Of a DNA stretch of 64,000 nucleotides, positions 6,917-23,153 are shown piece after piece (the stretch's first letter is position 1; every line of letters begins with the position of its first letter). The position numbers were made by a program, and so were the translations under genes. The notes beneath the pieces are model-generated. The model ran no database searches. It was not told the DNA's origin and saw only the letters and a program-made list of their open reading frames with translations. The stretch is from Tsukamurella tyrosinosolvens (lineage in GTDB: Bacteria; Actinomycetota; Actinomycetes; Mycobacteriales; Mycobacteriaceae), in NCBI RefSeq assembly GCF_900104775.1, contig NZ_FNSA01000003.1, positions 4,588,001 through 4,652,000 on the forward strand, given 5' to 3'.

Positions 6917-7771
6917 CGCCCGCACCGCGTCGATCGTGTCCGCCTCGGCGGCGGTCTTGTCCGGCCGGTAGCGCAGCACGCGGGCGAAGCGCAGGGCGAC
7001 GCCGCCGGGGTACCGGCGCGAGACCTGCACCCCGTCGAGCTCGATCTCGACCACGATCTCGGGCCGCAGGTACACGGTGTGCTCGTCGCGGGCTCGCTCG
7101 TGCAGCGGGAACTCCTCGGTCTGCCAGCGCAGCAGCGCGTCGGTGAGCCCCTTGAAGGTCTTGCCCACCATGACGGGATCGCCGCCGTCCGGGTCGTGGG
7201 CGCCGAGGTGCAGGTTCGACAGCATCCCGGTGCGCCGGCCGTAGCCCCACTCCGCGCCCAGCACCACCAGGTCGAGCGTGTGGGTCTGCTTGACCTTCTG
7301 CCACGCGCGGCCGCGGCGGCCCGCGGCGTAAGGCGAGGCGAGCGCCTTGACCATGACGCCCTCGTGCCCCGCGGCGAGGGCGGCCTCGTAGTGGGCGGCG
7401 GCCTCGTCCGGGGCGGGCCGGGCCAGCGCGGGGATGCGCAGCCCGCCCGCCACCGACTGCAACGCGTCGAGCCGGACCGACAGCGGCTCGTCCAGCAGGT
7501 CGCGGCCGTCGAGATGCAGGCAGTCGAAGAAGTACGGCCGCAGCACCGTCTCGCCGGACTCCGACGATCCGAACCGGCTCATCGTCTCCTGGAAGGGCCG
7601 CGGCCGGCCGGCATCGGTCAGGGCCAGCGACTCCCCGTCGAGCACGACGGACCGGCACGGGAGTTCCCGCGCCAGCGCGACGATCTCGGGCACGGCGTCG
7701 GTGATGTCGCGGAGCGTGCGGGTGTAGACGCGCACCTCGTCGCCGAGCCGGTGGACCTGGATCCGGGCGCC
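6902..7771 (-). pseudogene. ligB: ATP-dependent DNA ligase LigB, C-terminal part (split by the element)
   Basis: Reading from the left junction this frame encodes ARIQVHR.. onward, i.e. the rest of the adenylation domain ([30 protein letters not shown]) and the OB-fold, 288 residues after the junction glycine. It lacks the nucleotidyl-accepting lysine, which lies in the other half at 23124-23792. Joined to that half the protein would be about 505 residues, the length of Rv3062 (LigB). An ATG within the element (7795) could initiate a 297-residue fragment, but it would be catalytically dead. The 3' end overlaps convergent fadD17 by 15 bp. Confidence 0.9.
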
Positions 7772-7796
7772 AGCCAATAGTTGGTCATGACTCATG
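7757..7796. other. attL: left chromosome-element junction
   Basis: Sequence to the left continues the ligase frame; sequence to the right is element. Bases 7766-7772 (GGCGCCA) match 23139-23145 (GGCACCA) at all but one position. The most symmetric crossover dinucleotide is CC at 7770-7771: the element-side TGACTCA (7788-7794) is then centred 20.5 bp away, exactly as TGAGTCA is in attR. The dinucleotide falls in the first two bases of the Gly codon of KLDG on the minus strand. Confidence 0.8.
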
Positions 7797-7810
7797 TAGT
7801 ATTTGGCGCC

Positions 7811-9202
7811 ATGACCAGCGCCAACGCCATCATCTACGCCCGCATCTCGAAGGACCGCACAGGCGCGGGGCTCGGCGTCGAGCGCCAGGCCGAGGACTGC
7901 CGCGCCCTCGCCGAGCGGCTCGGCTGGACCGTGCTGCGCGTCGAATCCGACAACGACATCAGCGCGTACTCAGGCAAGCGGCGCCCCGGCTATGAGCGGA
8001 CCCTCGCCGCACTGGAGTCCGGCGAAGCGTCGGCGGTTATCGCGTGGCACAGCGACCGGTTGCACCGGCGCAATACGGAGCTGGAGCCGTTTCTCGACAT
8101 CGTCGAGCGCACCGGCGCGCAGGTGGCGACGGTGCAATCCGGCCCCGTGGACCTCGCGTCACCGTCGGGCCGGATGACCGCCCGGATTCTTGGCGCCGTC
8201 GCGCAGCAGGAGGTCGAGCACACGACGGCCCGGATCAAGGCCCAGAAGGCGCAGACGGCCGCAGCGGGCGGGTACCGGGGCGGGATGCGCCCGTTCGGCT
8301 ACGAGCGCGACGGGATGACGATCCGCGAGCACGAAGCGGCGATCATCCGCCGCGCCATCGCCGACGTGACGGCGGGCAAGACGATCAGCGCCGTACGGCG
8401 GGAGCTCAACGCCGCCGAGATCCGCACCTCCAGCGGGCGCGAGTGGTCGCTCCCGGGCGTGCGGAACGTGCTCACGCGGTGGCGCAACGCGGGCAAGGTC
8501 GAGCGCGAGGGCGAGCCGGTCGCGGATGCGCAGTGGCCCGCGATCGTGACCGTGGACGAGCTGCTCGCCGTGCGGGCCGTGCTCGCCAACCCCGCGCGGC
8601 GGGTGAGCCCCGGGAATCAGCGACGGTGGCAGGGCGCGGGCGTCTACATCGACGCGTACACCGGCGACCCGATGGTGTGCACCAAGAGCAGCGGGACCAA
8701 CCCCACGCCGGTCTACCGTCCCGCTGCCCGCACGGCGGGGTGCGCGTCCGTGGTCGCCGTGGATCTCGACGAGTACGTGAGCGCGGCCGTGTGTGCCCGC
8801 CTGGGCCAGCCGGACGCCCGGGAGCTGCTCGCGGCCCCGGAGGTCGATACTCGCGGCCTGAGCGGGCAACGGGAGGCCCTCGACGCCCGTCTCCGGGAGG
8901 CGGCGAGCTTGTTCTCGTCCGGCGCGATCACCGGCGCGCAGCTCACCGAGATCACGGCCGACCTGCGCGCCCAGCTCGACACGATCGACGCGCAGCTTGA
9001 CGCGGCGACGGCAGACCCGGAGTTGGCCGAGTTGCTCCGCGCCGATGACATCCGCGCCGCATGGGACGGCCCCAACGGGTTGCACGTGGACACCCGCGCC
9101 CGGCTCATCAAATCCCTTGCGCGGGTGACGGTTCACAAGATGACCGTGAAGGGCGTGAAGCGCACGTTCAAGCCGGAGTGCGTCGACATCGAGTGGCTTT
9201 GA
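7811..9202 (+). CDS. int: Large serine recombinase (integrase)
   Basis: 463-residue serine integrase. The resolvase-type catalytic domain has the nucleophile Ser13 in YARISKD, with RQAEDC and SDRLHRR downstream; a recombinase domain ([12 protein letters not shown] onwards) and a leucine/alanine-rich coiled coil near residues 365-415 follow. The usual zinc ribbon is reduced: only two cysteines (MVC.., AGC..) remain and no CxxC pair is seen, and the protein is short for this family. ATG 7811 fits the family N-terminus; TAGTAT at 7797-7802 ends 8 nt before it, suggesting a leaderless transcript starting next to attL. In-frame upstream starts at 7781 and 7787 are possible. It should catalyse attP x attB integration into ligB. 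Confidence 0.93.
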
Positions 9203-9215
9203 TCGCCAATTCTGG

Positions 9216-9224
9216 CATGACTCA
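9216..9224 (+). repeat. CATGACTCA copy downstream of int
   Basis: The 9-mer CATGACTCA, present in the attL arm at 7786-7794, recurs here in the same orientation 14 nt after the int stop, so the gene is flanked by two copies. The rest of the 219 bp gap (9203-9421) holds only a possible weak promoter (TTGTCG 9304-9309, CGGATA 9328-9333). Confidence 0.45.
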
Positions 9225-9421
9225 ACAGATTCCGAGCCCCACGCCGAACAGGCACTTTGTCGCACACTCTGGCACGGAGCAGAACAGTCCGATACAGTTC
9301 TTCTTGTCGGTAACGAGCCGACACCATCGGATACCGTGCGGCACAAGCTGAGCGGGACGAACGAGAGTCTGCGGGCCACGCGCCCCGGCTAAGCGGTGGT
9401 CTTCTTCCACAGGAGACCGCT

Positions 9422-9643
9422 ATGCCATCACCGCCCACTACCGGGCCCCGCCACCTGCGCGGATTCAGCAACGTCCACGCCTACCTGCGCGACACGCTCG
9501 GTATGCCCGTCGGCCTTCGTGCGATCAAGCGGGCCACCCACGAGGGCGAGTTGCCCCACCTGGAGATCGCGGGCCGCCACTACTTCGCCCCGGAGGACAT
9601 CGACGATTGGGTCGCGTCCCTGAAGGTCCGGGGCGCACGATGA
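9422..9643 (+). CDS. Small HTH protein, excisionase/AlpA-like
   Basis: 73 residues with a MerR/AlpA-type helix-turn-helix: GLRAIKRATHEGELPHLEIA followed by GRHYFAPEDIDDWV, the wing-plus-helix pattern of phage excisionases and AlpA regulators. In integrative elements this type either directs excision (Xis) or activates the satellite excision/replication genes. The ATG at 9422 has GGAG just upstream. It is the first gene after the integrase and overlaps the next ORF by ATGA (9640-9643), so it heads the early operon. No separate repressor of the CI type was found in the element. Role as Xis versus activator cannot be decided from sequence. Confidence 0.75.
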   Translation: MPSPPTTGPRHLRGFSNVHAYLRDTLGMPVGLRAIKRATHEGELPHLEIAGRHYFAPEDIDDWVASLKVRGAR

Positions 9644-9783
9644 CCCGGGACGAGATCCGCGCGGCCGGTGCGAGGGCGGCCGAGGGCGCGCCGCCGCTCT
9701 CGCCCGAGCAGCGGGCCCTCATCCGCGCAGCTTTCGCCGCGCGGCCGGTGTGCCAGCCGACCTCACGGAGGGCCGCCGCGTGA
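9640..9783 (+). CDS. 47-aa actinophage-type small protein
   Basis: Starts in the ATGA overlap with the HTH gene and ends in a GTGA overlap with the next ORF. The sequence contains LSPEQRALIRAAFA, a short alpha-helical stretch common in tiny early-region ORFs of actinobacterial prophages. No catalytic motif, no membrane segment. The evidence for coding is the translational coupling on both sides and the composition matching its neighbours; function unknown. Confidence 0.6.
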   Translation: MTRDEIRAAGARAAEGAPPLSPEQRALIRAAFAARPVCQPTSRRAAA

Positions 9784-10064
9784 GCCACAACCACGACACC
9801 GACATCCTTCCTGTCGTCAACCTCACGCCGGTGGGCCTCATCGAGGCCAGCTTCGGCGACCAGGTGATGACGCTGGACACCGAGGCCGCGCGGTCGCTCG
9901 CGGTGAACTTGCTCTCCCTCGTCGGCGTGCGGCTCACCGCCGATCCACCGTCCGGCGTGCCGTCGGCGATCGTGTTCCCGGCCCTGCTCGCGCAGGTCGC
10001 GGACGCCGCCGGGCAATGGCGAGACCTGCTCGCCGACGAGCCGGGCGCCGCACCGGCCCCGTAA
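9780..10064 (+). CDS. Hypothetical early-region protein
   Basis: 94 residues from a GTG start that overlaps the preceding stop (GTGA at 9780-9783). It is acidic and hydrophobic in patches (VVNLTPVGLIEASFGDQVMTL), with a helix-rich C-terminus (VFPALLAQVADAAGQWRDLL) and a Pro/Ala tail. No signal peptide, membrane segment or enzyme motif is visible. Coupled translation with the two ORFs upstream suggests one early operon. I do not recognise a function. The stop at 10064 is followed by two hairpins before the next ORF. Confidence 0.6.
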   Translation: MSHNHDTDILPVVNLTPVGLIEASFGDQVMTLDTEAARSLAVNLLSLVGVRLTADPPSGVPSAIVFPALLAQVADAAGQWRDLLADEPGAAPAP

Positions 10065-10079
10065 CCACCTGATTCACAC

Positions 10080-10131
10080 CCCGCCTCGCCGAGGCGGGCC
10101 CGGGGAGGACCAGCCCGAAACGGGAGTCCTC
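10080..10131 (+). promoter_or_regulatory. Two hairpins in the leader of the 54-aa ORF
   Basis: Hairpin 1 (10080-10098) has arms CCCGCCTC/GAGGCGGG with a 3-nt loop. Hairpin 2 pairs GAGGAC (10105-10110) with GTCCTC (10126-10131), with CCCG/CGGG inside it, and ends 1 nt before the ATG at 10133. The only SD-like sequences (GGGGAGG, CGGGAG) lie in or next to the second stem, so it may control translation. Confidence 0.5.
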
Positions 10132-10132
10132 A

Positions 10133-10297
10133 ATGCACCACCACAGCACCACCACCGACGAGATCCACGCGGCCCAGATCCGCGTCCGCATGGCCTGCTG
10201 CTGCCGCGAGCAGCCGCACCCGGCCGACGTCGAGTTCCTGAAGGCCCACGGCGCGCTCACCGACGAGCTCGCCGAGATGATCTCGTTCGTCCCCTGA
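10133..10297 (+). CDS. 54-aa Cys/His-containing protein
   Basis: Begins MHHHSTTTDEIHAAQIRVRM and carries a CCC triplet followed by REQPHP, then an acidic helix to the end (EFLKAHGALTDELAEMISF). The clustered His and Cys residues could bind metal but form no known finger. The ATG directly follows a stable hairpin containing the SD-like bases. It precedes the 304-aa ORF by 26 nt with an AAGGA-type site between them. Function unknown; coding status is supported by codon composition and position in the operon. Confidence 0.6.
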   Translation: MHHHSTTTDEIHAAQIRVRMACCCREQPHPADVEFLKAHGALTDELAEMISFVP

Positions 10298-10323
10298 AAC
10301 ACCAGCTAGAGAAGGACATTCAC

Positions 10324-11238
10324 ATGACCATGAAGATCACGACCACCCCCGGCACCGGCGGCCCCGTTGACCCGATGGCGCCGCCCGCGAGTCTCGATTA
10401 CGAGCCCGGCACCATGCCGGAGCACTTCGCGAGCAAGGAGAGCCGCGACCGGAACGCCAGGATCGAGCGGCAGAACCAGGACGCCCGCACCGCGAAGATC
10501 GCGCAGGAGACGAACTTCAGCGCGCAGGCCGCGCAGGCCCAACGACCGCCCACGCGCCCGCACCTGAAGGCCGTGGCCTCCGGCCGGGTCGCGGAGCTCT
10601 GGGAGCCGATCAGGGCCCGCGAGGTGGGCGCGTTCTCCCGCGTCCGCTCCCGCCTCGACGGGACCCGCGAGGCCGGGCAGACCCGCGAGGCGATCCTCAC
10701 CGCCGCGCTGGAGAGCGGCCGCAAGAGGGAGGCGATCCCGGAGGATCTCGGCGAGCAGCTCGCGCGGGTCGAGCAGCGGGACGCGCTCACGGAGGCCAAC
10801 CGCGCGGGCCTCCAGCTCGCGGGGAGCATGGTCGCCGACCGACTCACCCGCCTCGCGCAGGACCAGAAGCGCGACCTGTTCGCCGCCGTGCAGGCTGACC
10901 TGCGCGAGGTCGTCGCCCAGGCTCACCAGCTCGCCCGCGCGCTGGAAGGGATCACCGACGCGGAGACCGCGATCCGCCGGGGCGAGTCGGCCGTCATCGC
11001 GTGGGGTGCCCGCGAGGGCCTCCGGGAGCGGTTCCTCACCGTCGCGGCGTCCGCCCGGTTCGTGCACCGGGCCTGCGCCGACGGCTTCCAGTACGTGCTG
11101 GCCGGTGGCTCCCCCGACCAGCTCGGCAAGGCGGGCCTCGATACGGAGCGGATCTCGTCGACCTGGGAGCTGCTCGATCAGTGGATCGAGGACCTCAACG
11201 CCACCGACGCGGCGACGGACTTGCTGGTCGGCCGGTAA
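10324..11238 (+). CDS. Hypothetical 304-aa alpha-helical element protein
   Basis: Predominantly helical, charged protein with long Arg/Glu/Ala-rich stretches (residues about 30-60 and 80-210) that could form coiled coils, no membrane segment and no recognisable catalytic motif. The ATG at 10324 has GAAGGAC 9 nt upstream. It lies between the small early ORFs and the replication gene, where phages and satellites often carry unique regulators or recombination accessories. I do not recognise a family. Base composition does not differ from its neighbours. Confidence 0.65.
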   Translation: MTMKITTTPGTGGPVDPMAPPASLDYEPGTMPEHFASKESRDRNARIERQNQDARTAKIAQETNFSAQAAQAQRPPTRPHLKAVASGRVAELWEPIRAREVGAFSRVRSRLDGTREAGQTREAILTAALESGRKREAIPEDLGEQLARVEQRDALTEANRAGLQLAGSMVADRLTRLAQDQKRDLFAAVQADLREVVAQAHQLARALEGITDAETAIRRGESAVIAWGAREGLRERFLTVAASARFVHRACADGFQYVLAGGSPDQLGKAGLDTERISSTWELLDQWIEDLNATDAATDLLVGR

Positions 11239-11263
11239 CACCACTCACAGAACGGAGAAACAC

Positions 11264-11572
11264 ATGAGCAACAACGGTTTCGGCAAGTACCTGAGCGGCG
11301 AGCAGACCGACGCGCAGCGCCGCGCCACGCCCGGCTACAAGCGCGGCGTGGGCCGGTACCTCGACCCCACCACCACGGCCGCGAACGAGAAGCGGGAACA
11401 GCTCGCCCAGCTCCGGCGCCAGCGCATTCGCGAGTCGATCGACGCGGGCACGGTCCGATACGAGGGCGAGGCGTGGGGCAGCAAGAACGGCGCGCCGATC
11501 GACCCGCTCACCGGCGACGAGGCCGCGATCGAGAAGGCGTGGCGCGACGAGTTCGGCGGGGATGCCTCGTGA
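11264..11572 (+). CDS. Hypothetical 102-aa protein
   Basis: Starts with ATG 11264 after ACGGAG and ends in a GTGA overlap with the following ORF. The first third is Gly/Tyr-rich (GFGKYLSGEQ..GYKRGVGRYLDP, two GxGxYL-like repeats), the middle is a basic helix (NEKREQLAQLRRQRIRESID), and the end is acidic. It has no membrane segment or enzyme motif. The duplicated GxxxYL pattern is visible directly. Function unknown; probably co-translated with the 65-aa protein next. Confidence 0.6.
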   Translation: MSNNGFGKYLSGEQTDAQRRATPGYKRGVGRYLDPTTTAANEKREQLAQLRRQRIRESIDAGTVRYEGEAWGSKNGAPIDPLTGDEAAIEKAWRDEFGGDAS

Positions 11573-11766
11573 TTACCACGGCGACGTGCGCGAGGTGCTT
11601 CGCGCCGGTCGGCGGGCGGGTGTGGGTCGAGACCCGGCCCGACGGGGTCGCCCACTGGTCGAGCCGGTGCTCGCGCATCGTCGGCGAGATCGCCGAGGAC
11701 GTCGTCCTCGCGTTCGTGACGCCCGAGCGGGACGTTCCGATTGGCGTCAATCAGCAAGTGGCGTAA
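11569..11766 (+). CDS. 65-aa protein with CxxC motif
   Basis: Begins at GTG 11569 inside the stop of the preceding ORF. An N-terminal CARC motif and a later WSSRCSRI give three cysteines that could form part of a zinc knuckle, followed by a hydrophobic acidic helix. Short Zn-binding proteins of this kind are frequent in actinophage early regions, but no specific family is recognised. It is the last gene of the early operon; the primase promoter region begins right after its stop. Confidence 0.55.
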   Translation: MITTATCARCFAPVGGRVWVETRPDGVAHWSSRCSRIVGEIAEDVVLAFVTPERDVPIGVNQQVA

Positions 11767-11770
11767 CAGT

Positions 11771-11805
11771 ATTCGAGTCTTCGTTCGAAGATTCGATGCT
11801 ATGGT
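11771..11805 (+). promoter_or_regulatory. Putative promoter/operator of the replication gene
   Basis: TGCTATGGT (11797-11805) looks like an extended -10. Directly upstream is the inverted repeat TCTTCGTTCGAAGA (11778-11791), nested between two ATTCGA copies (11771-11776 and 11791-11796). A regulator binding there would occlude the polymerase. The assignment rests on pattern alone. Confidence 0.45.
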
Positions 11806-11845
11806 GACGGTGTCGCGCGGGTAGCTCCGCGAGCACCAACAACGA

Positions 11846-11904
11846 GAGCCAGCCGTCCCGGCCAGCTACGGCGGCCTTGCCTGGGGAGGCGGGATGGTTG
11901 GCTC
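11846..11904 (+). promoter_or_regulatory. Long structured leader upstream of the replication gene
   Basis: GAGCCAGCCGTCCCG (11846-11860) pairs with CGGGATGGTTGGCTC (11890-11904): 15 bp with two G-U pairs, enclosing a further CCAG/CTGG pairing and a GGGGAGG. It ends 21 nt before the primase ATG and would be transcribed from the promoter just upstream. Confidence 0.55.
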
Positions 11905-11925
11905 GACTCACAGAGGCGAAACCGC

Positions 11926-14787: not shown

Positions 14788-14798
14788 GAGAAACCCAC

Positions 14799-15191: not shown

Positions 15192-15204
15192 CCCGCTCGA
15201 TCCG

Positions 15205-15233: not shown

Positions 15234-15261
15234 CTTCGTGTCCGGGGCACAGCACGGGGGC

Positions 15262-15608
15262 AGGGGTCTGCACGCGCACGAGGACATGAGGCGGCACGGG
15301 CACAGGAGGGGTCTGCACACAGGAGGGGCCTATGTGCGGTACGGGTGTAGCCGGGTGCATGTCAGTGTTGGCGTGAATGGTGTGTGAGATAGCAATAGGG
15401 GTTAGCGTGAACACGCACATAGGGGTCCCTAATAACCCAGGGGTCTAGAGCTGGTATCACCAGGAACAGGTGAGTGGTGATACCAGATGCCCAACATATC
15501 ACCGCAGGTCAGAGCGTTATCGGCCCTCGTTTGGTATCAGGTATCAGCTCGACCCCTATTCTCCCCTCAACGCAGGGGTCCAAACGGACATAGTGGACAT
15601 GAGGGGTT
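15262..15608. repeat. AGGGGTC repeat array
   Basis: Nine copies or near copies of AGGGGTC occur at 15262, 15307, 15324 (AGGGGCC), 15397 (AGGGGTT), 15421, 15439, 15574 and 15602 (AGGGGTT) on the plus strand and 15551-15557 inverted. The spacing is irregular. No gene overlaps. They intermingle with the TGATACCA family, and the pair of arrays is the strongest candidate origin/iteron region of the element. Confidence 0.7.
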
Positions 15609-15775
15609 GTGTTGACCATGTCCGATTCCAAGGGATTCCGTAAGAGCGACAAAACAGGTGATACCACTGATACCAAATGTGAGAGTTGACGTTATTTATG
15701 CAGTTCAAGAATGGTTTTTGAGTGGTATCACATCCCCGAATCGGTGGTGATACCTGGTATCAGGTGGTGATACCA
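15452..15775. repeat. TGATACCA/TGGTATCA repeat array (iteron or operator cluster)
   Basis: Eight exact 8-mers lie at 15452, 15478, 15532, 15659, 15668, 15723, 15755 and 15768, in both orientations, plus two one-mismatch copies (15539 and 15748). Two perfect 11-bp inverted arms CTGGTATCACC (15451-15461) and GGTGATACCAG (15476-15486) surround a 14-nt spacer, and the 11-mer recurs at 15766-15776. The stretch from about 15640 to 15730 is the most AT-rich part of the element. Fits replication iterons or a repressor/activator array. Confidence 0.8.
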
Positions 15776-15776
15776 G

Positions 15777-16297
15777 CACCAAGAGGGCAGCGCAGAGCCA
15801 GCACAAGAGCCCTATGCGCCATCGAGGGCCGCCAGACGGACACGGAGGCGCCGAAGGCGTGCCGATCGCTCAGCGTGGACGTGAGGGCGTGGCAGCACGC
15901 ACGCCAGCACGGAGGACGACGGACGAGCAGACACTCGGGGGGTGGGCCCCTCCCCCACGGCCACGAGGGAGCCCCCATCGTGCTGTCTGGAATGATTCGT
16001 TCACCTAACTAAATCCTTCGATACAGCAAGCCGGAGGGTCGAATACGCCCCTGGCCTGCGGTTTTACCGTCAGCGCCGGACGCGGGCGAGCCCGGAGCGG
16101 TCCACGGCGCGCGCCATCCACGGCCCCCAGTCGCGGGATAGAGCACGAGATCCGTTCCCGCGCAGTCGATTCCAGATCCGCCCTTCGCGGGCACCAGCGG
16201 GACGCCTCGCGGGGATCGCGCCCACGCCCTCCCAGAGCCGCCCAGCGCACAGCACACCGGCACAGGCACAGTCGGGGTTGACGCCAACCACTACATT
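15777..16297. other. Non-coding stretch between repeat array and toxin module
   Basis: About 520 bp without a convincing gene: short ORFs here lack ribosome sites and have atypical composition. It holds a G/C-rich self-complementary patch (GGGTGGGCCCC, about 15940-15950) and TTGACG at 16278-16283, a possible -35. Nothing else could be supported. Confidence 0.5.
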
Positions 16298-16315
16298 ACT
16301 CGCCGCGCGGCGAGT
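16298..16315. promoter_or_regulatory. Perfect palindrome upstream of the antitoxin-like gene
   Basis: ACTCGCCGCGCGGCGAGT is an 18-bp perfect palindrome ending 38 nt before the ATG at 16354, with TTGACG 14 bp upstream. Toxin-antitoxin operons are normally autoregulated at such a site; this could be the antitoxin operator. Confidence 0.6.
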
Positions 16316-16353
16316 AGGCTGGATGGACACCGCAGCACCGGGAAGGGGACCGC

Positions 16354-16578: not shown

Positions 16579-16590
16579 GTCTCCCCTCCG

Positions 16591-17484
16591 TTGGCGATCA
16601 CATTCGTGCTGGACACGAACACCTACATCAGCGCAGCTATCAGCCCCAGCGGGACGTGCGCACAGCTCGTCGAACTCGCCCGACAGGGCCGCGTCCGGCT
16701 CGTGGTGTCACCGCACCTACTCGACGAGCTGGAGACGCGCCTCGCGCGGGAGAAGTTCCGCCGGTGGCTCACCCTCGACGACGTCCGCGACTTCGTCGAC
16801 GCCCTCACGCTGCTCGCCGACATGGTCGACGACCGGCCCGAGAACGAGACCCCGCACGTGTGCACCGACCCGGACGACAACTTCCTCGTGGCCCTGTTCC
16901 AGGACGCACAGGCGGCGATCCTGGTGAGCGGCGACAAGGCGGTGTTGGCGATCGAGTACCCCGGCCTCGACGTGCGAAAGCCAGCGGAGGCCCTCGCCGC
17001 GCTCACGTTCACGCACGAGTGGGGCGAGGGCTACCTAGAGGGCTCCGAGGAACGATCGTTCGCCCAGATCGAGGATGAGGGCAACAGGGGGATCTTCGCG
17101 GCCTACTCGTCCTTCGTCACGGTGCTGGAGCAACCGAACGCGCACGAGTTGCTGCCTTACGTCGTCGTCCCCGAGACGCTGAAGGCATTCCGCCGGGACC
17201 TCGCATGGCTCCGGGAGAACGTTCTCAATCGGGGAATCACTACGCGGCCGGACTACGCATCGCCCGACATCGCACACCTGAAGTTGCCACCAGATCCCGG
17301 CGTCAACCTTCGCGCGACCGACGAGATTCGGCTCCCGGACGACACCATTTACGCCACGATGCAGCGGTGCCCCGACCTGGACGACCTCCCCGGCGCGGAG
17401 ATGGGGCAATGGCGCGTGTTCGGCATCGGCGCCCCGGTCCCACCTCAGAAGATCCGCCCGCGTCCCCGTCGCAACACCCGGTAG
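16591..17484 (+). CDS. PIN-domain ribonuclease, toxin-like, with long C-terminal extension
   Basis: 297 residues from a TTG start. The first ~140 residues are a PIN_3/COG1569-type domain: LDTN with the first acidic residue at position 8, the LLDELETRL glutamate, CTDPDDNFLVALFQDA and LVSGDKAVL supply the usual four acidic residues for Mg-dependent RNA cleavage. A further ~150 residues follow (EWGEGYLEGSEERSF to a basic tail PRPRRNTR) with no recognised domain; VapC toxins normally end near 140 residues. It lies in the cargo position between candidate origin and terS, where satellites often carry defence or interference genes. An anti-phage role is inference. Confidence 0.75.
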   Translation: MAITFVLDTNTYISAAISPSGTCAQLVELARQGRVRLVVSPHLLDELETRLAREKFRRWLTLDDVRDFVDALTLLADMVDDRPENETPHVCTDPDDNFLVALFQDAQAAILVSGDKAVLAIEYPGLDVRKPAEALAALTFTHEWGEGYLEGSEERSFAQIEDEGNRGIFAAYSSFVTVLEQPNAHELLPYVVVPETLKAFRRDLAWLRENVLNRGITTRPDYASPDIAHLKLPPDPGVNLRATDEIRLPDDTIYATMQRCPDLDDLPGAEMGQWRVFGIGAPVPPQKIRPRPRRNTR

Positions 17485-17733
17485 GTCTGACCAGCGGGAA
17501 CCGGCAGGCCGCTGCGCCGCCGGCCTCGTCAGAATTGACGCCGACCCGAACGTTCGTATTGACGTAAATCCTTGCATCACAGCCTGATTCGTCGTCGGAA
17601 CATTTGACTCCGCGTGCTCTACTAGAGCCATCGGCGAGCCCGGGGTGTCTTCGATTGACCTCCCAAGAACATCGGTCCCCCGGGCCCGCCGGTCACTCAT
17701 CCGCCCCTCGCGGGCACGACCACGGGAGACGAC
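17485..17733 (+). promoter_or_regulatory. Intergenic region before the packaging genes
   Basis: Two TTGACG hexamers (17535-17540 and 17559-17564) flank the perfect palindrome CGAACGTTCG (17547-17556); another TTGACT lies at 17604-17609. No clear -10 at normal spacing could be assigned. The region probably holds the promoter of the terS operon. No gene was found here. Confidence 0.4.
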
Positions 17734-17880
17734 ATGGCAACCGCCGCAGAGCACAAGACCCAGGCCGAGCAGCACCTCACCGCAGCGGAGGCCGGACTGG
17801 CCGAGCGCAAGTTCGGTCTGTTCGACCAGTACGTGGCCCTCGCCCAGCTGCACGCGACCCTCGCGACGATCGCGGACTGA
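17734..17880 (+). CDS. 48-aa protein upstream of terS
   Basis: Starts at ATG 17734 after GGGAGA and ends 2 nt before the terS start. Nearly all-alanine/glutamate helix (AAEHKTQAEQHLTAAEAGLA, then FGLFDQYVALAQLHATLATI). It could be a small scaffold or regulator of packaging, but nothing in the sequence proves that. The close coupling to terS and consistent codon use support it as a real gene. Confidence 0.55.
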   Translation: MATAAEHKTQAEQHLTAAEAGLAERKFGLFDQYVALAQLHATLATIAD

Positions 17881-17882
17881 CG

Positions 17883-18389
17883 ATGGCCGCCCGGCGCGGG
17901 ATGCCCGCGAAGGTTACGAGCGCGCAGCTCCGCGCGCACTACGACGCGGAGGTCGAGCGGCTCAATGACGAGCTCGACGAGCGGGGCGAGGACGGGTTCG
18001 AGCTCGACGACGCCGACCGTGCGTTCATCGACCGCCTCGCCGTCATCGCCGACGAGATTCTCATCCTGGAGAAGGACATCGAGCGCAACGGCCCGCTGGT
18101 CAAGTCGGCCGTCACCGGCGACACGAAGGCCAACCCGGCCGTCGCGCTACACCGGGGGCTCGTGCAGGACTTCGGGAAGATCATCGCGACCCTTGACCGG
18201 CGCCTTGCCGCGACGAGCGGGATCGAGCCCGCGACCAGCACCACGGGGCCCAAGCCGGGCACGCCCAAGGGGTTCCGAGGCGAGTACAAGCCCCGCGCCA
18301 CCGGCACGGACGGCGGCAACGTCGTCGCCATGCCGCGCCCCGCACCGAAGCACAGCAGCGCAGGCGGTCGACGGATGAGGAACACGTAA
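17883..18389 (+). CDS. terS: P27-family-like small terminase subunit
   Basis: 168 residues. The central part (LDDADRAFIDRLAVIADEIL, then NGPLVKSAVTGDTKANPAVA and a helix with FGKIIATLDRRLA) follows the pattern of P27-type small terminases of actinophages, which recognise the packaging site and recruit the large subunit. The N-terminus is a basic helix; the Pro/Lys-rich C-terminus is probably disordered. No large terminase gene follows, which is unusual for a prophage but typical for satellites that redirect a helper terminase. The stop overlaps the next ATG (TAATG). Confidence 0.65.
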   Translation: MAARRGMPAKVTSAQLRAHYDAEVERLNDELDERGEDGFELDDADRAFIDRLAVIADEILILEKDIERNGPLVKSAVTGDTKANPAVALHRGLVQDFGKIIATLDRRLAATSGIEPATSTTGPKPGTPKGFRGEYKPRATGTDGGNVVAMPRPAPKHSSAGGRRMRNT

Positions 18390-18721
18390 TGGGACGCCGC
18401 ATCAAGCGCGCGCAGCACGAGGCGCAGCCCCGCCCACAGCGGGCCACCCGCACCGCACCGGCGGCCCCGGTCCCCGCCTTCGAGGACGAGCTCGCGGCCG
18501 TCCTGGAGACGTTGGGCCTACGCGCGGACGACCTGGAGCGCGGTGGGGTGCTCAACCCGTTCGCGGGCGAGGACGGCGATGGATTCCGGCCGTTCGCGCC
18601 GTGCGAGTTCGTGTGGCCGCACGCCGCGCTACGCCGGGTCGAGCACCGGGCCGCGATCGAGCGACACCTCCGGCCGCACCGGCGGTTCTTCAGCTACATC
18701 CCGCGTGGCATCACCGCATGA
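18389..18721 (+). CDS. Hypothetical 110-aa protein after terS
   Basis: The ATG overlaps the terS stop (TAATG) and its own end overlaps the next ATG by 4 nt. A basic, Pro/Ala-rich N-terminus (MGRRIKRAQHEAQPRPQR) precedes a folded-looking C-terminal part with an acidic helix (FEDELAAVLETLGLRADDL) and an Arg/His-rich helix (RRVEHRAAIERHLRPHRRFF). In a phage this slot is normally the large terminase; this protein is far too small and has no ATPase motif. Function unknown; a packaging or capsid-modifying role is speculation from position. Confidence 0.6.
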   Translation: MGRRIKRAQHEAQPRPQRATRTAPAAPVPAFEDELAAVLETLGLRADDLERGGVLNPFAGEDGDGFRPFAPCEFVWPHAALRRVEHRAAIERHLRPHRRFFSYIPRGITA

Positions 18722-19635
18722 CCACGCTCGGCACCACGCGGGAGCGGCCGACGCACTGCAAGGGCGGCCACGAGTTCACGGAGATGAACACGCGGATCGA
18801 CCGCAACGCGGACGGTAGTTTCCGACAGCTACGGTGCCGCGCCTGTGCAGCGGAGGCGCAGCGCCGCGCCGTCGAACGCAAACGGGAATCCGGCAAGTGG
18901 GAGGACCACCTCGCCGCCCGGCGGGAACGAGAACGAGCGGGTCGCGCCGAGTCCGCGAAGGTCCACACCCGGCGGAAACGGGACGAGCTGGCAGAGCAGA
19001 ACCGGCACGACGACCAGGAGGCACTCATGGCACACGCTCGCGACCACGCGCACGTCGCGGCGGGGCCGTTCCCGATCGCTGACCCGCTCGTGCGAGTTCC
19101 GGCGGCGTGCCGCCGTGAGCACGAGCTCACGGCGCGCACGGTGCACGTCACGACCCGCGTAGTCGACGGCGAGACGGTGCCCGGCGGCGTCGAGTGCATC
19201 CGGTGCCTCCGGGAGGACTGCTACCGAGCGCACTACCGGTTGAGCGCCGCCGCCCCCGTGCCGCCGGAGATCCTCGACGAGGGCGAGTTCATGCGGCAGC
19301 CGTGCGGCACCGGCCATGTCTCGCGCCGTGCGGAGCCGTGGCCCACCGGCGCGGGGTGGTGGACGCGCGTCGAGTTCGCGTCGGGGTGGGGTTTCTGCGA
19401 CCCGGACCCCACGCCGGAGCTGCGCGCCGCCCGGGAGGCCGCGCGCAAGGCCGAACAGGACGAGCGGGAAGCCGCCGAGACGGCCCGCATCGCCGCCGAG
19501 CTCGACGAGCTGGAGTTGAAGGATGCACGAGCCCGCCGAGAGCAGCGCGCTCAGGACGCCAACGCCGCGACGGCCGCGATCCGGGCCGCGATCCGGGCCG
19601 CGATGACGGCCGCACGAGGCGGGGTCGCGGTATGA
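18718..19635 (+). CDS. Hypothetical Cys/His-rich protein (two zinc-binding-like modules)
   Basis: 305 residues. The first module, HCKGGHEFTEMN with LRCRACAAEAQRRAVERKRE, places C/H and CxxC pairs about 25 residues apart, like phage zinc-ribbon proteins. A second module has CRREHELTARTVHV with VECIRCLREDCYRAHYR. A third cysteine-containing stretch is QPCGTGHVSRR with WGFCDPDP. Long Arg/Glu helices link and end the protein. This repeated Zn-finger pattern is seen in actinophage proteins annotated as HNH-like or unknown; no HNH catalytic triad is visible here. It is coupled to the upstream gene by ATGA. Confidence 0.6.
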   Translation: MTTLGTTRERPTHCKGGHEFTEMNTRIDRNADGSFRQLRCRACAAEAQRRAVERKRESGKWEDHLAARRERERAGRAESAKVHTRRKRDELAEQNRHDDQEALMAHARDHAHVAAGPFPIADPLVRVPAACRREHELTARTVHVTTRVVDGETVPGGVECIRCLREDCYRAHYRLSAAAPVPPEILDEGEFMRQPCGTGHVSRRAEPWPTGAGWWTRVEFASGWGFCDPDPTPELRAAREAARKAEQDEREAAETARIAAELDELELKDARARREQRAQDANAATAAIRAAIRAAMTAARGGVAV

Positions 19636-19730
19636 GCGGGTATCGTGGGGGACGAACCTCTGAAGCTCGCCAGAGCTCGCGCGAAACCCAGGATCGCCCC
19701 GCGACTTCGGAGGTTTCCCCGTGCGCCTAG
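19632..19730 (+). CDS. Possible 32-aa ORF
   Basis: Starts in an ATGA overlap with the preceding gene and overlaps the next GTG start by 10 nt. The sequence (MSGYRGGRTSEARQSSRETQ and onward) is polar and without motif. The coupling at its 5' end is its only support; the same bases contain GGTATCGT, which could be a promoter -10 instead. Confidence 0.3.
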   Translation: MSGYRGGRTSEARQSSRETQDRPATSEVSPCA

Positions 19731-20050
19731 CGCTTTTGATCTTCGGCTACGAGATCGTGGCCGTCGAGATCGGTCTCGGAGACGCCGGGGAGGCCTCCGA
19801 GACCGACTTCGACGACGGCCCGGCGTACGAGCTGACCAGCGAGACACTCCCCGTCGAGACGGATCTCGGGCTGGATGATGACGAGGATGCCCCGCGCCCG
19901 CTCGTGATCGTGCGCGGCGACCACAAGCGCGGGCAGACCACGAGGACACGCCGTAACCGGCCGCCGTTCACCGGCTCCGGCCTCACACGGGTAGACGTCA
20001 GGAATGGTGTCAAGCGAAGCACACCAACGGGTTTCGGGTTCCACGCCTGA
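19721..20050 (+). CDS. Hypothetical acidic protein with hydrophobic N-terminus
   Basis: 109 residues from GTG 19721. The N-terminus LALLIFGYEIVAVEIGLG is a short hydrophobic beta/alpha segment found at the start of several small proteins in actinophage genomes; a very acidic centre (ETDLGLDDDEDAPRP) and a basic tail follow. It is too short to be a convincing transmembrane helix. TTTCCCC just upstream is a poor ribosome site, so the start is uncertain. It is the last gene before the tail module. Function unknown. Confidence 0.55.
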   Translation: MRLALLIFGYEIVAVEIGLGDAGEASETDFDDGPAYELTSETLPVETDLGLDDDEDAPRPLVIVRGDHKRGQTTRTRRNRPPFTGSGLTRVDVRNGVKRSTPTGFGFHA

Positions 20051-20147
20051 GCGGAGTTTTGACCGGCTGTGGGATCATGGACGCAAGCGCCGGGCACCCG
20101 CCCGGGACCGGGGAGGTCCACCATCGCGTAGTTAGGCATCCCCGCAC
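20051..20147 (+). promoter_or_regulatory. Leader of the tail gene
   Basis: 97 bp containing TTGACC (20059-20064), a hairpin CCGGGC-ACCC-GCCCGG (20090-20105) and ACCGGGGAGGTCCACC. A similar GGGGAGG-plus-CCA sequence occurs at 10102 and part of it at 11884. The ATG at 20148 has no ordinary SD directly upstream. Confidence 0.35.
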
Positions 20148-22112
20148 ATGGCCCCGTTCGACGTCCACGCCGCCAACCGGCACACGCCCCGGGAGCTACT
20201 CGACGCGGGCGGGCAGCTAGCACTGAAGCGGGACATCTCGTCCCCGGACGAGGTGCTGAAGATCGCGGGCCAGATCGCGGCGCTCTTCGGGTTCGACCTG
20301 GAGCACTGGCAGGACATGTTCGACTTCGACGACCTGCGCGCAGCCATCGCGGGCGAGTACGTCGGCACGGACCCCGCCCTCAACGCGATTCAGACCGTGG
20401 TGGGGACGATCCGCCGGTTCGCCACGGGCATCATCGACCCGTCGCGCCTGCCGCTCATCCCGCTCTCCCACATCGGCGAGGCCAGCCCGAACCTGCTGGA
20501 GAACGGCAGCTTCGACGGGGACGACCCCATTGAGCAGACCGAGGGGTGGACCTTCAACCCCGCCATCGGTCGGACCAAGCCGGGCAGCGCGCAGACGACC
20601 GGCAAGGGCACGCGGCGGGTCCTGTTGTCCAACGCGGTGCTGTGCACGCCGGGGCAGCAGTTCGACGTGGGCGGGTTCGTCACGTGGTCCATGCTCACCG
20701 GTGGCGGCGCGGGGGCCTTCAAGCTCTCGGCGGTGGCCTACGCGGCCGATGACTCCCACGTCGGCGAGACCGTGGTTGCGTCGATCGACTCGCCGTCCGG
20801 CGCGCAGGCGTGGACGGGGCTACTCGGCACGTACACCGTGCCGGAGGGCGCCGCGAAGATCCGCCTTCAGATCGAGGTGGCCGCCACGGTCACCGGCGGC
20901 ACGATCAACTGGGACGACCTGAGCGTCACGAAGTACGGCAACCTGCCGCAGCGCATGGTCGCGGGCCTGGTGTCTGCGCTCGGCGACCTCGGGGCCGGGA
21001 TCGCTGCCGCCGTGGAGGCAATGGGGAACTTCTTCGACAAGCTCACAGGCAAGATCGGCACCACGATCGCCGACCTCCAGTCCTGGGCCGGGCAGTTGAA
21101 GACGATCCTCTCCGGCGGCACCGTTGGCTCGGGCATCTTCCCGACCCTCGACAACGGCCTACGCGGAGTCGTGTCGGGCGTGCAGGGCTTCGCGCAGGCG
21201 ATCCTGGAGAAGATCGTGCAGGCGATCCGGGGCATCCCCGTCGTCGGCGCGGGCCTCGCGGACCTGTTCGACGACGTCGCGGGTCTCCGCAGCACGGCTG
21301 ACACCGCGAACGCCACCGCGATCACGGCCGACACGAAGGCCGTGGCGGCCCAGGGCACCGCCGACGAGATCGTCGTGGGCGTGGTGGACGGCTGGGCCGG
21401 AGCGGGCACCAGCAACGGCGAGGTGTTCGACACCATGCAGGCGATCCGCACCGCGATCCTCAACGGGTACACCGTCGAGACGATCACGAGTTCCGGCAAC
21501 TGGGCCAAGCCCACGGGCACCCTCATGGAGTTGGTCGTGGTCGGCATCGGATCGGGGAAGAACGGCACCGTCGGCAACGCCGTCGCCCCGCTCGGCGGTG
21601 GCTTCCTCACGAAGGCCTACGACCCCGCGAGCCTCCCCACGTCGGTCGCCGTCGTGATCGGCACGAACGGCAACCCGACGAAGTTCCACACCGACTTCCA
21701 GACGACGCCCGGCGCGGGTGGCATTGCCACGCAGTTCGGCTACTCGCAGACCTCGTCGATGCCCGGCAACGGCGGTCTCGGAGGTCTCCCGAACGACTCC
21801 CAGTTCAATCCCGGGACCGCAGGCGAGAGCACGCCGCTCGCGGTCGGTGGGTCGCCGGGCCTCTCGCGGGGCGCCTCGGGGCAGCCCGGCGCCTCGGTCG
21901 ACGCTTCCGTGCCGACCAAGTGCGGGGGCGCCGGTGGCGGTGGCGGCGCGTCCGGCCGAAACAGTCTCGGCGAGACGAGCGGCGGCAACGGCGGCAACGG
22001 CGGCTTCCCCGGCGGGGCAGGCGGCAACGCCGGGGCCAAGTATGGCGCGTTTGGCTCTGACGGCACGCCGGGCCTCGGCGCGGCCGGTGTCCTGTGGGTC
22101 TTCTACCGATGA
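20148..22112 (+). CDS. Minor tail / receptor-binding protein
   Basis: 654 residues. The N-terminal ~120 residues form a helical attachment region (PLIPLSHIGEASPNLLENGS at its end); residues about 120-265 resemble a carbohydrate-binding/jelly-roll module (NGSFDGDDP.. to TGGTINWDDLSV); then an alanine-rich helical region with GIPVVGAGLADLFDDVAGLR and a repeat-like TADTANATAITADTKAVAAQ coiled coil; the C-terminal ~170 residues are Gly-rich (GGNGGNGGFPGGAGGNAG) ending FGSDGTPGLGAAGVLWVFYR. This layout is typical of actinophage tail-tip proteins that contact the cell envelope. Here it occurs without any other recognisable virion gene except the two small ones that follow. Confidence 0.8.
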   Translation: MAPFDVHAANRHTPRELLDAGGQLALKRDISSPDEVLKIAGQIAALFGFDLEHWQDMFDFDDLRAAIAGEYVGTDPALNAIQTVVGTIRRFATGIIDPSRLPLIPLSHIGEASPNLLENGSFDGDDPIEQTEGWTFNPAIGRTKPGSAQTTGKGTRRVLLSNAVLCTPGQQFDVGGFVTWSMLTGGGAGAFKLSAVAYAADDSHVGETVVASIDSPSGAQAWTGLLGTYTVPEGAAKIRLQIEVAATVTGGTINWDDLSVTKYGNLPQRMVAGLVSALGDLGAGIAAAVEAMGNFFDKLTGKIGTTIADLQSWAGQLKTILSGGTVGSGIFPTLDNGLRGVVSGVQGFAQAILEKIVQAIRGIPVVGAGLADLFDDVAGLRSTADTANATAITADTKAVAAQGTADEIVVGVVDGWAGAGTSNGEVFDTMQAIRTAILNGYTVETITSSGNWAKPTGTLMELVVVGIGSGKNGTVGNAVAPLGGGFLTKAYDPASLPTSVAVVIGTNGNPTKFHTDFQTTPGAGGIATQFGYSQTSSMPGNGGLGGLPNDSQFNPGTAGESTPLAVGGSPGLSRGASGQPGASVDASVPTKCGGAGGGGGASGRNSLGETSGGNGGNGGFPGGAGGNAGAKYGAFGSDGTPGLGAAGVLWVFYR

Positions 22113-22402
22113 TGAACGGAGCAACGATGCAGCACGTCGCGGATCTCGATTGGTGGTGCCCGGTGACCAAGCTCTACCGGGCCGACGACGGCCAGCACTT
22201 CGCGGTGCTGTGCGCTGACTTCTACACCGCGCAGCACACCGAGGTGTTCCTCGCCGACGAGCACGGCACAGCGATCGACGCCGACGGCGACCCCGCCAAC
22301 GGCCTCACGGCCCTCGTGCGATGGGACGAGCAGCTCGACCACGACGAGGCCGTTGCTCGGCTCTCCGCGTGGCTTGCCCCGGATCTCGGGAAGGGCAAGT
22401 AG
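22109..22402 (+). CDS. Hypothetical protein coupled to the tail gene
   Basis: 97 residues from the ATG overlapping the tail-gene stop (ATGATGA); an internal ATG at 22127 is an alternative start. Acidic and aromatic (DLDWWCPVTKLYRADDGQHF), with a central segment CADFYTAQHTEVFLADEHGT and a helical end. Its sole location is between two tail-type proteins, so a tail-tip accessory or chaperone is plausible. No known motif. The next ORF starts directly after its stop. Confidence 0.6.
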   Translation: MMNGATMQHVADLDWWCPVTKLYRADDGQHFAVLCADFYTAQHTEVFLADEHGTAIDADGDPANGLTALVRWDEQLDHDEAVARLSAWLAPDLGKGK

Positions 22403-22579
22403 ATGGCGACGAACATCGGCGCGATCATCCCGACGCGCACGGCCGCCGAGTGGCGGCAGCTCAACCCCATGCTGGTCAAGGGCCAGCTCGTGCACGAGAG
22501 CGACACACTGGCCTTCAAGGTCGGCACCGGCAACGACCGGTACAACGATCTCGGGTACTCGGGCCTCGTACAGAACTAG
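22403..22579 (+). CDS. Tail-fibre N-terminal-domain-like 58-aa protein
   Basis: ATG 22403 is adjacent to the preceding stop. The pattern IIPTRTAAEWRQLNPMLVKG, then ESDTLAFKVGTGNDRYNDLG is the short beta motif of hyaluronidase-like/Mtd N-terminal tail repeats (typically ...Anp-hL..GE.g.E.Dt...KiGDG...Wn.L.Y). In phages it anchors fibres to the virion. As a stand-alone 58-residue protein it could cap or adapt the tail tip. Assignment is by remembered pattern. Confidence 0.6.
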   Translation: MATNIGAIIPTRTAAEWRQLNPMLVKGQLVHESDTLAFKVGTGNDRYNDLGYSGLVQN

Positions 22580-22593
22580 GGAGGAAGACGACC

Positions 22594-23049
22594 ATGACCG
22601 GACGAGCCCCGAAAACGTGCTCACAGATCATCGACACCCCGTACGGGCGCGGCCCGTGCCCTAGGAAGGCCGTCGAGCACCGGGGCCGCGACTACCGGTG
22701 CGAGCAGCACCCCGTGAAAGAGAACCTCGACGCCAACCAGCGCGCCCGGCGCCGTCGGATCAAGCCGCTCACGACGGCCGAGAAGGACCACATCCGGGAG
22801 CGGGATTGGCACGTCTGCGCAGAGTGCGGCGCACCGGCGCACCAGGTCGACCACATCACGGAGATCGCCGACGGCGGCGACAACCGGCCCTCGAACCTCC
22901 AGTTGCTGTGCGATCGGCACCACGCGCTGAAGACGGCCCAGAGCCGACGGGACGGCGACCCCCGCGACGGCGCCACGAAGCGCCGGGAGCTCTCCGCGCG
23001 TGCCCTGCAGAAACGCCGCCTGCGCGAGCAAGGTTTCTACGTGCAGTAG
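22594..23049 (+). CDS. HNH endonuclease
   Basis: 151 residues with GGGAGGAAG before the ATG. A Cys/His-containing N-terminus (residues 9-39) is followed by the HNH core: CAEC (75-78), Asp86-His87, Asn101 and CDRHH (106-110), i.e. a zinc-braced beta-beta-alpha-metal nuclease. HNH proteins beside terminases assist packaging cleavage in many phages and HNH genes are regular in satellites; here it is the last gene before attR. A terminase-assisting role is inference. Confidence 0.85.
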   Translation: MTGRAPKTCSQIIDTPYGRGPCPRKAVEHRGRDYRCEQHPVKENLDANQRARRRRIKPLTTAEKDHIRERDWHVCAECGAPAHQVDHITEIADGGDNRPSNLQLLCDRHHALKTAQSRRDGDPRDGATKRRELSARALQKRRLREQGFYVQ

Positions 23050-23113
23050 CCCGGCGACGGCACGTCACGACCGACGTAAACTCAGACATAACAGCAGGTC
23101 ACATTGGGTATGT

Positions 23114-23153
23114 AGGACTTGAGTCACAAACCACAGGTGGCACCATCCAGCTT
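23114..23153. other. attR: right element-chromosome junction
   Basis: Element sequence with TGAGTCA (23120-23126) and GGCACCA (23139-23145) passes into the ligase frame at the CC dinucleotide 23143-23144. Joining this arm to the attL arm reconstructs attP: 15 of 23 positions are symmetric about CC, including TGAGTCA and TGGC. Joining the outer sides restores the ligase codon GGC and an open frame. Confidence 0.8.

Follow-up and report, generated by a model that had tools for sequence, protein, structure and literature searches.

A 15.4-kb block of phage-like genes in the genome of Tsukamurella tyrosinosolvens (5.28 Mb) raises the question of whether it is what remains of a prophage or a satellite that lives off another phage and equips that phage's particles with tail parts of its own. 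The block is found in the 64,000-nucleotide stretch of contig NZ_FNSA01000003.1 that was analysed as a whole (the window). The element is probably an integrated, cos-packaged satellite with a gene order like that of phage-inducible chromosomal islands (PICIs), parasitizing siphophages of the family Zierdtviridae, redirecting their capsid assembly and installing its own tail parts. On infection by such a helper, the element would excise and replicate from a set of iterons by means of its own primase, and the satellite small terminase subunit (TerS) and HNH endonuclease would, together with the helper's large terminase, recognize satellite DNA. A 102-amino-acid (aa) protein, referred to as the motif protein, would compete with the helper's scaffold, leading the helper capsid protein to build smaller heads, and a tail-tip protein of the satellite would enter helper tails, yielding particles that bind Tsukamurella. 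With the likely helper family, the packaging site, the likely capsid-redirecting peptide and the tail-tip swap all named, each step is directly testable.

An element inserted in the host DNA ligase gene

The borders of the one-strand element of 15.4 kb that an earlier note on this DNA had placed at 7770..23144 were refined to 7766-7771 and 23139-23144. The element, comprising window positions 7766-23144 (15,373 bp) with all of its genes on the plus strand, lies within a gene encoding an ATP-dependent DNA ligase on the minus strand, at the KxDG motif. Intact ligase sites read AAGCTGGACGGCGCCCGG or near variants thereof, with 7 of the 13 uninterrupted ligases being caught by the search pattern. 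In the sample of 16 genomes of the genus, the ligase match fell within an open frame of 524-882 codons in 13 cases, whereas the ligase was split in the genome under study (G000) and in a second genome (G007), and one genome (G013) gave no match. Because the ligase is interrupted here and uninterrupted sites are seen in relatives, the sequence identifies the 15,373 bp as an insertion at the ligase catalytic motif, attributable to the serine integrase. As such, the element presents the integrase and the unique attachment site that are features of PICIs.

Much of the gene content described in the earlier note was borne out. The integrase, Prim-Pol, PIN, tail and HNH proteins were each identified by profile, with the integrase being of the serine type. 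Of the AlpA/Xis-like helix-turn-helix (HTH) protein, the match to HTH_17 and the AlpA-type place in the gene order stand, although that match falls below the Pfam cut-off; likewise, the PIN pair is upheld for the 297-aa protein, but its 74-aa partner gave no convincing family match. PADLOC, run on eight proteins, returned only a 13.6-bit match, to the PIN protein. As had also been noted, large terminase, portal, capsid and lysin genes were not found: profiles for large terminases, portals, capsids, major tail proteins and lysis proteins matched none of the element proteins scanned, a set that comprised all but a 54-aa frame at 10133-10297 and a 47-aa frame added by the annotation of the record.

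The repeat array reported earlier was confirmed by counting, with GGTATCA occurring 11 times in the window (10 of these within 15453-15774) against an expected 1.48, and with at least 11 being found in none of 100 shuffled sequences. This array is the putative replication origin, which would complete the pairing of primase and origin typical of PICIs. In G007, other repeats were seen by eye at this position; between the two copies, divergence of the origin is paired with that of the replication gene.

The G007 element, about 15.4 kb in length, occupies the same site and presents the same gene order as its counterpart in the window. The two share 97% identity in the integrase, 96% in the HTH protein, 98.8% in TerS, 89% in the HNH protein, 72% in the tail protein and 39% in the primase. 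None of the 13 genes compared contained stops. With the tail gene treated in two parts, giving 14 rows, the ratio of nonsynonymous to synonymous substitution rates (dN/dS) was 0.05-0.54 in 13 rows, being lowest for TerS (0.05) and reaching 0.07 for the integrase, 0.26 for tail residues 1-420 and 0.51 for the motif protein; tail residues 421-654 gave 0.86. Judging from these two sequences, the element is kept as a unit under purifying selection.

Relatives lacking a phage late block were found in other genera, with genes in unannotated loci being called by a simple script. When TerS served as the single query, 6 of 401 genomes of the family, that under study included, gave matches. A sister element in G673 comprises a split serine integrase, an HTH protein, a primase (48.6% identity to that of the window over 933 aa), TerS and homologues of the 305-aa and small proteins listed in Table 1, followed by a tape measure. 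The G673 integrase gene (L043:8425-9474) is interrupted by a transposase-like gene, and since it is split, this copy is probably stuck. G001 contains a minimal element, about 7 kb long (L040:11329-18001, L041), that encodes a tyrosine-type integrase, an AlpA-like protein, a Prim-Pol protein, the motif protein and TerS. It is about half as long as the element in the window and may be packaged in multimeric form. A further relative lies in G632, and that in G535, lying near a contig end, shows no motif protein. In Nocardia thailandica NBRC 100428 (L057), a divergent integrase and HTH regulator are accompanied by an AlpA-like gene, the motif protein, a primase and TerS, with no tail gene being noticed in this element. 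A profile scan of genome contigs with the primase alignment returned 19 loci, of which, by tblastn, only that of N. thailandica also encodes proteins homologous to TerS and to the motif protein; several of the other 18 contained an integrase beside the primase, and one (L064) gave a short match to the N-terminus of Kabluna gp23. In the viral contigs searched, the primase gave one weak locus, and TerS and the integrase gave none.

Putative packaging site, scaffold motif and candidate helper

The tail protein N-terminus, the HNH protein, the primase and the G673 tape measure all point to a single group of Gordonia phages that includes Kabluna and GTE8, assigned in their records to the family Zierdtviridae. 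The primase shares 47% identity with that of Kabluna over 410 aa. In Kabluna and GTE8, an HNH gene directly precedes the large terminase gene, with a gene encoding a gp23-type tail protein found three genes upstream of HNH. Among the Kabluna and GTE8 proteins compared, only the tail N-terminus, the HNH protein, the fibre domain and the primase found matches in the element, which does not present itself as a Zierdtviridae prophage. From these likenesses, we infer that the helper is a Zierdtviridae phage. As a possible helper, a remotely related prophage in G001 (36% capsid identity) was examined without success: the protein in scaffold position does not contain the motif described below, and no cos-like match was found in 38 kb.

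The helper links that the earlier note had called for were found in the form of the tail N-terminus, HNH, a cos-like site and a scaffold motif. The assignment of the small terminase gained strength, as Terminase_4 alone gave a weak match, whereas a profile built from TerS of the window and its relatives recovered small terminases of phrog_1496 in all three proteins scanned. The noncoding island found 5' of terS in the window holds GGGGTGGGCCCCTCCCCC...GCCCCCATCGTGCTGTC, and the corresponding site in G673 holds GGGGTGGGACCCCTCCCCC...GAGCCCGCCCCGTACTGTCC. The genome ends of phages Kabluna, Turuncu, Emianna and NadineRae present a G/C-rich hairpin followed by ...GGCCCGCCGCGTAC / TGTCCTCGA, and that of GuyFagieri reads ...GCAGCCGCGTAC / TGCGG. 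For all five phage ends, the noncoding stretch aligned best at one and the same place. The likeness was first spotted by eye and tested afterwards with shuffles in 2-base blocks: for the G673 stretch, none of 200 shuffles reached the score with any of the five phages, and for the window stretch, the score was reached by 0 (Turuncu), 1 (NadineRae), 2 (Kabluna), 8 (GuyFagieri) and 11 (Emianna) of 200. Short-word DNA matches between the noncoding stretches and the phage and sister sequences were chance-like. Variants of the site in G001, N. thailandica and G632 were noticed after the window and G673 stretches had been tested. The island is likely cos-like in its resemblance to Zierdtviridae genome ends; with a terS gene and a counterpart of the helper's cos, either of which denotes packaging redirection in PICIs, the element would be packaged by the helper.

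GFGKYL and GVGRYL are found in the 102-aa protein, with the motif searched for being GFG[KR]YL. When 94 sequences (1.10 Mb, six frames, repeated loci counted) were searched, the exact motif was matched 14 times, in every case in a satellite motif protein or at the C-terminus of the head-scaffolding proteins of Kabluna and GTE8; the reversed motif gave no match and codon-shuffled sequences gave a mean of 0.05. Exact GFGRYL was present in 7 of 10 Zierdtviridae scaffolds read, and the TM4 scaffold did not contain GFG[KR]YL. Across the family, the motif protein was found in 5 of 401 genomes, all five of them TerS-positive, and in the genus of G673, it was restricted to G673 among 59 genomes. Compared with phage proteins, the 102-aa protein gave no match better than E 1.

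A precedent exists in SaPI1, where the capsid protein is bound through a RIIK motif found at the C-terminus of both CpmB and the scaffold of phage 80alpha, and competition between the two sets head size (PMC5644958). Here too, a small satellite protein and the C-terminus of the scaffold in the presumed helper family share a short motif, with capsid binding being predicted; unlike CpmB, the motif protein presents GFG[KR]YL instead of RIIK, in two or three copies along its length. By analogy, the 102-aa protein may redirect capsid assembly, and the motif predicts which end of the Zierdtviridae scaffold binds the capsid.

Tail genes and alternative explanations

The 654-aa minor tail protein is a mosaic. 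Its N-terminus shares 56% identity with a Zierdtviridae (Kabluna-group) protein over 57% of the protein. Compared in 60-residue steps, the first 420 residues show 43-70% identity to Kabluna gp46 and 20-42% identity to tail proteins of two prophages of the genus, in G014 and G002 (the prophage status of which was read from gene lists), whereas from residue 420 onwards the values are 20-27% and 33-55%, respectively. Between G000 and G007, similarity of the tail proteins amounts to 78-97% up to residue 420 and to 42-52% beyond it. Because glycine accounts for 24% of the C-terminus, this part was shuffled: the scores against G014, G002 and G007 were each reached by none of 200 shuffles, and that against Kabluna by 141 of 200. 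The break near residue 420 is not due to glycine-rich composition. Minor tail proteins of isolated phages likewise show similarity to the C-terminus (up to 45%), and the DUF7572 gene directly follows the minor tail gene in prophages of the genus. Our reading is that a part for docking to the helper has been fused to one for receptor binding that suits Tsukamurella.

In G673, the tail slot is taken by a tape measure protein of 1368 aa (phrog_6090, E 1.1e-199), shorter by about 430 aa than those of Kabluna (1808 aa) and GTE8 (1795 aa), with both ends conserved. In work on the PLE satellites of Vibrio cholerae, 95 tape measure residues corresponded to some 10-15 nm of tail (PMC12987554); on this relation, the shorter G673 protein would give tails shorter by some tens of nanometres. 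The fibre N-terminal-like protein of the earlier note does match the start of Kabluna gp23, and no counterpart was found in the G007 gene list. This free-standing docking domain may have been left behind by an acquisition event or may block the site at which the helper's fibre attaches.

Several observations weigh against a Zierdtviridae satellite that redirects packaging and capsid assembly and replaces tail parts. No pair of such a satellite and its helper is known, and a search of the genome under study at E 1e-5 revealed no capsid gene of the Zierdtviridae type. TerS gave no match at E 0.01 in the BLAST phage collection. In the window, the shuffle test of the cos-like site was clear for only one phage of five, the alignments to Kabluna and GuyFagieri cover the hairpin part alone, and the core CGTGCTGTCT differs from the CGTACTGTCC of the Gordonia phages. 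A composite cos pattern found once, 5' of terS, in each of the six satellites containing the motif protein, and elsewhere in 1.72 Mb only as one opposite-strand overlap in the window copy (one match in reversed sequence), was drawn up post hoc, after all six sites had been viewed; the phage ends, not being contiguous in their records, cannot count in this search. The scaffold motif is degenerate in 3 of the 10 scaffolds, all of Rhodococcus phages (GFGQYA, GMGQWA, GMGQFI), and in all three copies in the N. thailandica satellite. Finally, a tail protein could act by obstructing tail assembly instead of contributing to it.

That last point can be extended to a true satellite whose tail protein and 58-aa fibre domain inhibit helper tails, as a defence against superinfection, without becoming parts of particles. 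Interference by satellites with tail assembly is indeed known (Tai, PMC11364771; Rta, PMC12987554), and a solitary docking domain from a fibre N-terminus could occlude a fibre site. Yet, the C-terminal domain of the tail protein is complete and diverged and was seemingly exchanged with prophage tails along with DUF7572, and the G673 satellite contains a whole tape measure, such that an inhibitory role is unlikely.

It is more doubtful still that the tail genes are passengers of phage recombination, devoid of any role. The proximity of the HNH and gp23-type fibre genes just upstream of the large terminase gene in phages would allow for their acquisition in a single event, but the dN/dS of the N-terminal tail part between the two genomes, together with the presence of other tail genes near terS in other PICI-like elements, speaks against it.

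The alternative offered by the earlier note, a prophage without its structural block, was considered in the form of a decaying prophage from which the head, tail and lysis genes had been deleted. It could draw on the derivation of the tail, HNH and primase genes from a single phage family and on the 58-aa fibre fragment, which could be a deletion scar. Against it stand the conservation of an element of about equal size, at the same site and in the same order, in G007, and, in the genes compared, the lack of stops and dN/dS values below 1. The same note had named a full-length prophage at this site and a lack of conserved relatives as what would tell against a satellite; no such prophage was found among the 16 genus genomes, and sister elements exist in other genera. 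With the origin, cos-like site and TerS also retained together, decay was rejected as very improbable. A non-viral integrative plasmid (AICE-like) that acquired phage genes was likewise rejected, being scarcely credible: although a serine integrase, an AlpA-like protein and a Prim-Pol protein are also found in such elements, TerS, HNH and the cos-like site indicate packaging and no transfer gene was found among the proteins scanned.

A wider proposal can be made, to which we assign about an even chance. According to this proposal, the element would belong to a class of actinobacterial satellites that routinely overwrite the helper's tail, with those of Zierdtviridae combining a cos-like site, a multi-copy scaffold mimic forcing small heads and a swappable slot after terS. 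In Tsukamurella, the slot would hold a receptor-binding tip that retargets particles to the satellite's own host and, in a sister genus, a shortened tape measure giving short-tailed particles, with other PICI-like elements of the order containing tape measures near terS; the choice of recipient would fall to the satellite and not to its helper. Should the tip decide the recipient, the travel of the satellite would be separable from the infection range of the helper, with a bearing on gene flow among mycolic-acid bacteria.

Known satellites, further TerS loci and other features

Gram-positive PICIs, including SaPIs, consist of an integrase, an AlpA-like regulator, a primase, an origin and terS within about 15 kb at a unique attachment site, and contain no head or lysis genes. 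The window element agrees in its integrase, primase, putative origin and terS, in size and in its unique site, with its AlpA-like protein as a possible regulator. It departs from them in its integrase, a serine recombinase encoded on the plus strand with the remaining genes, in its tail genes, HNH and cos-like site, and in that the integrase and regulator genes are not divergent from the replication module, unlike in the N. thailandica relative. PICIs are also defined by having no structural genes of their own; here, a tail protein, a DUF7572 protein and a fibre domain are present, with no head or lysis family being matched. Capsid-forming PICIs (cf-PICIs) make their own heads and take whole tails from phages of other species. 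In cf-PICIs, the choice of tail decides which cells the satellite enters, as it would for the window element; here, the helper's head and a satellite part of the tail are proposed, and family scans revealed none of the capsid, portal and large terminase genes that define cf-PICIs.

Satellites are known to steal heads and tails, and the replacement of tail parts was shown in 2026 in one Vibrio family. Chimeric tails, part of the combination that the earlier note regarded as new, were demonstrated for the V. cholerae PLEs, which encode their own tape measure (TMP), tail assembly chaperone and baseplate hub and form tails about 10 nm shorter; the authors describe these as the first such family known and mention putative tmp genes in some cf-PICIs (PMC12987554). 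The window element represents another lineage. As with PLEs, helper-related tail proteins of the satellite would enter helper-built tails. Unlike PLEs, the window element has another gene set, an actinobacterial host and a presumed siphophage helper family, and encodes no TMP but a minor tail protein whose C-terminus is of the receptor-binding type, the G673 sister having a short TMP. No family of PLE-type TMP, tail chaperone or hub was matched among the window-element proteins scanned.

Candidate PICIs of Mycobacterium, defined by an integrase and a major capsid gene (PMC10654092), come from the same bacterial order and similarly combine an integrase with phage genes; scans of the window element revealed no major capsid gene. 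The Streptomyces satellites Mulch and Flayer, actinobacterial as well, encode capsid and packaging genes and are described as being without key replication genes, with MiniFlayer having its own tail fibres (PMC10690885), whereas the window element has replication genes and no capsid genes were found in it. Mycobacterial satellite phages are mentioned in a meeting report (PMC12908700), and a PICI nature has been suspected for small prophage-like elements of actinobacteria (PMC10023795). Among the matches listed from open-access literature without preprints, none concerned a Zierdtviridae satellite or a satellite with a receptor-binding tail tip.

Across the order, the TerS profile gave 29 rows in 27 of 397 genomes. 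Of the 28 rows from other genomes, 20 were examined, with PHROGs run on selected proteins, so that tail or head genes may be missed. A tape measure gene was found beside TerS or one gene off at 4 of these 20 loci, namely L129 (E 8e-172), L135 (E 5e-86, top family labelled endolysin), L140 (E 4.5e-165) and L146 (E 6e-59), and a major capsid gene was found near TerS in L127, L131 and L136, which are PICI-like as well. TerS of L128, L129 and L135, all three scanned, belongs to phrog_1496. Ten neighbours in the four tape measure loci gave no further structural match, apart from one in L140 that partly resembles a terminase (E 1.8e-10). These four loci are PICI-like, lie in other genera and perhaps represent other tail-replacing satellites with other helpers. 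No motif protein or cos-like pattern was found in the 20 loci, apart from loose motif matches inside unrelated-looking proteins of L134 and L142. TerS alone therefore does not define the family, and the helpers of the loci with tape measure or capsid genes presumably differ.

Table 1. Features of the element and of the interrupted ligase gene (window positions).
Feature	Position	Strand	Evidence
C-terminal part of interrupted host DNA ligase gene	6902..7795	-	DNA_ligase_A_M E 1.4e-32; first codons come from element
attL junction	7766..7771	.	core GG[CT]GCC (ligase strand) common to attR; ligase reading interrupted there
Serine integrase, 463 aa	7811..9202	+	Resolvase E 3.5e-27, PHROG integrase E 8e-80; 97% to G007
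AlpA/Xis-like HTH protein, 73 aa	9422..9643	+	HTH_17 E 2.6e-4, below Pfam cut-off; 96% to G007
Uncharacterised protein, 94 aa	9780..10064	+	66% to G007
Uncharacterised protein, 304 aa	10324..11238	+	homologues in G007, G673
Motif protein, 102 aa, putative capsid-assembly redirector	11264..11572	+	motif search; GFGKYL and GVGRYL
Cys-containing protein, 64 aa	11572..11766	+	78% to G007
Prim-Pol / D5-type primase-helicase, 953 aa	11926..14787	+	Prim-Pol E 2.7e-14; phrog_1156 E 7e-87; D5_N
Uncharacterised protein, 130 aa	14799..15191	+	no match in G007
Iteron array, putative replication origin	15453..15774	.	repeat count; 10 GGTATCA, both orientations
Conserved noncoding island	15815..16240	.	92% to G007; most conserved noncoding stretch of window
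Cos-like packaging site	15939..15987	+	G/C hairpin then GCCCCCATCGTGCTGTC; 5' of terS
Partner of PIN protein, possible antitoxin, 74 aa	16354..16578	+	96% to G007; no convincing family match
PIN-domain protein, 297 aa	16591..17484	+	PIN_3 E 2.4e-19
Protein ahead of TerS, 48 aa	17734..17880	+	similar protein in G673
Small terminase subunit, 168 aa	17883..18389	+	Terminase_4 E 8.2e-4 (below cut-off); TerS-relative profile; 98.8% to G007, dN/dS 0.05
Uncharacterised protein, 110 aa	18389..18721	+	85% to G007
Protein with weakly HNH-like N-terminus, 305 aa	18718..19635	+	homologues in G007, G673, G632
Small protein, 97 aa with record's start	19757..20050	+	homologues in G007, G673; N. thailandica protein of similar appearance
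Chimeric minor tail protein, 654 aa	20148..22112	+	phrog_746 E 6e-78; Zierdtviridae-type N-terminal 420 aa, prophage-type glycine-rich C-terminus
DUF7572 protein, 91 aa	22127..22402	+	DUF7572 E 5.6e-16; 75-76% to G002, G014
Free-standing N-terminal domain of tail fibre, 58 aa	22403..22579	+	phrog_21562 E 2.9e-17; 56% to Kabluna gp23 residues 1-52
HNH endonuclease, 151 aa	22594..23049	+	55% to GTE8 gp12, 54% to Kabluna gp26; resembles HNH beside phage large terminase
N-terminal part of host ligase	23124..23792	-	start and end per annotated record
attR junction	23139..23144	.	N-terminal ligase part stops at VSVEFKLDGA

Window bases 1-31,200 are identical to T. tyrosinosolvens NCTC13231 record NZ_LR134446.1, the sole difference being at about position 15401, where one G of a four-G run is absent from the NCTC13231 record. 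That record ("plasmid 4" of NCTC13231) contains ordinary metabolic genes along with the element and may be a mislabelled piece of chromosome; in the genome studied here, the region lies on a chromosome-size contig. Elsewhere on this chromosome, two integrase pairs of equal scores and spacing, at C3:9851-12083 and C3:2697518-2699750, apparently reflect a duplicated mobile segment.

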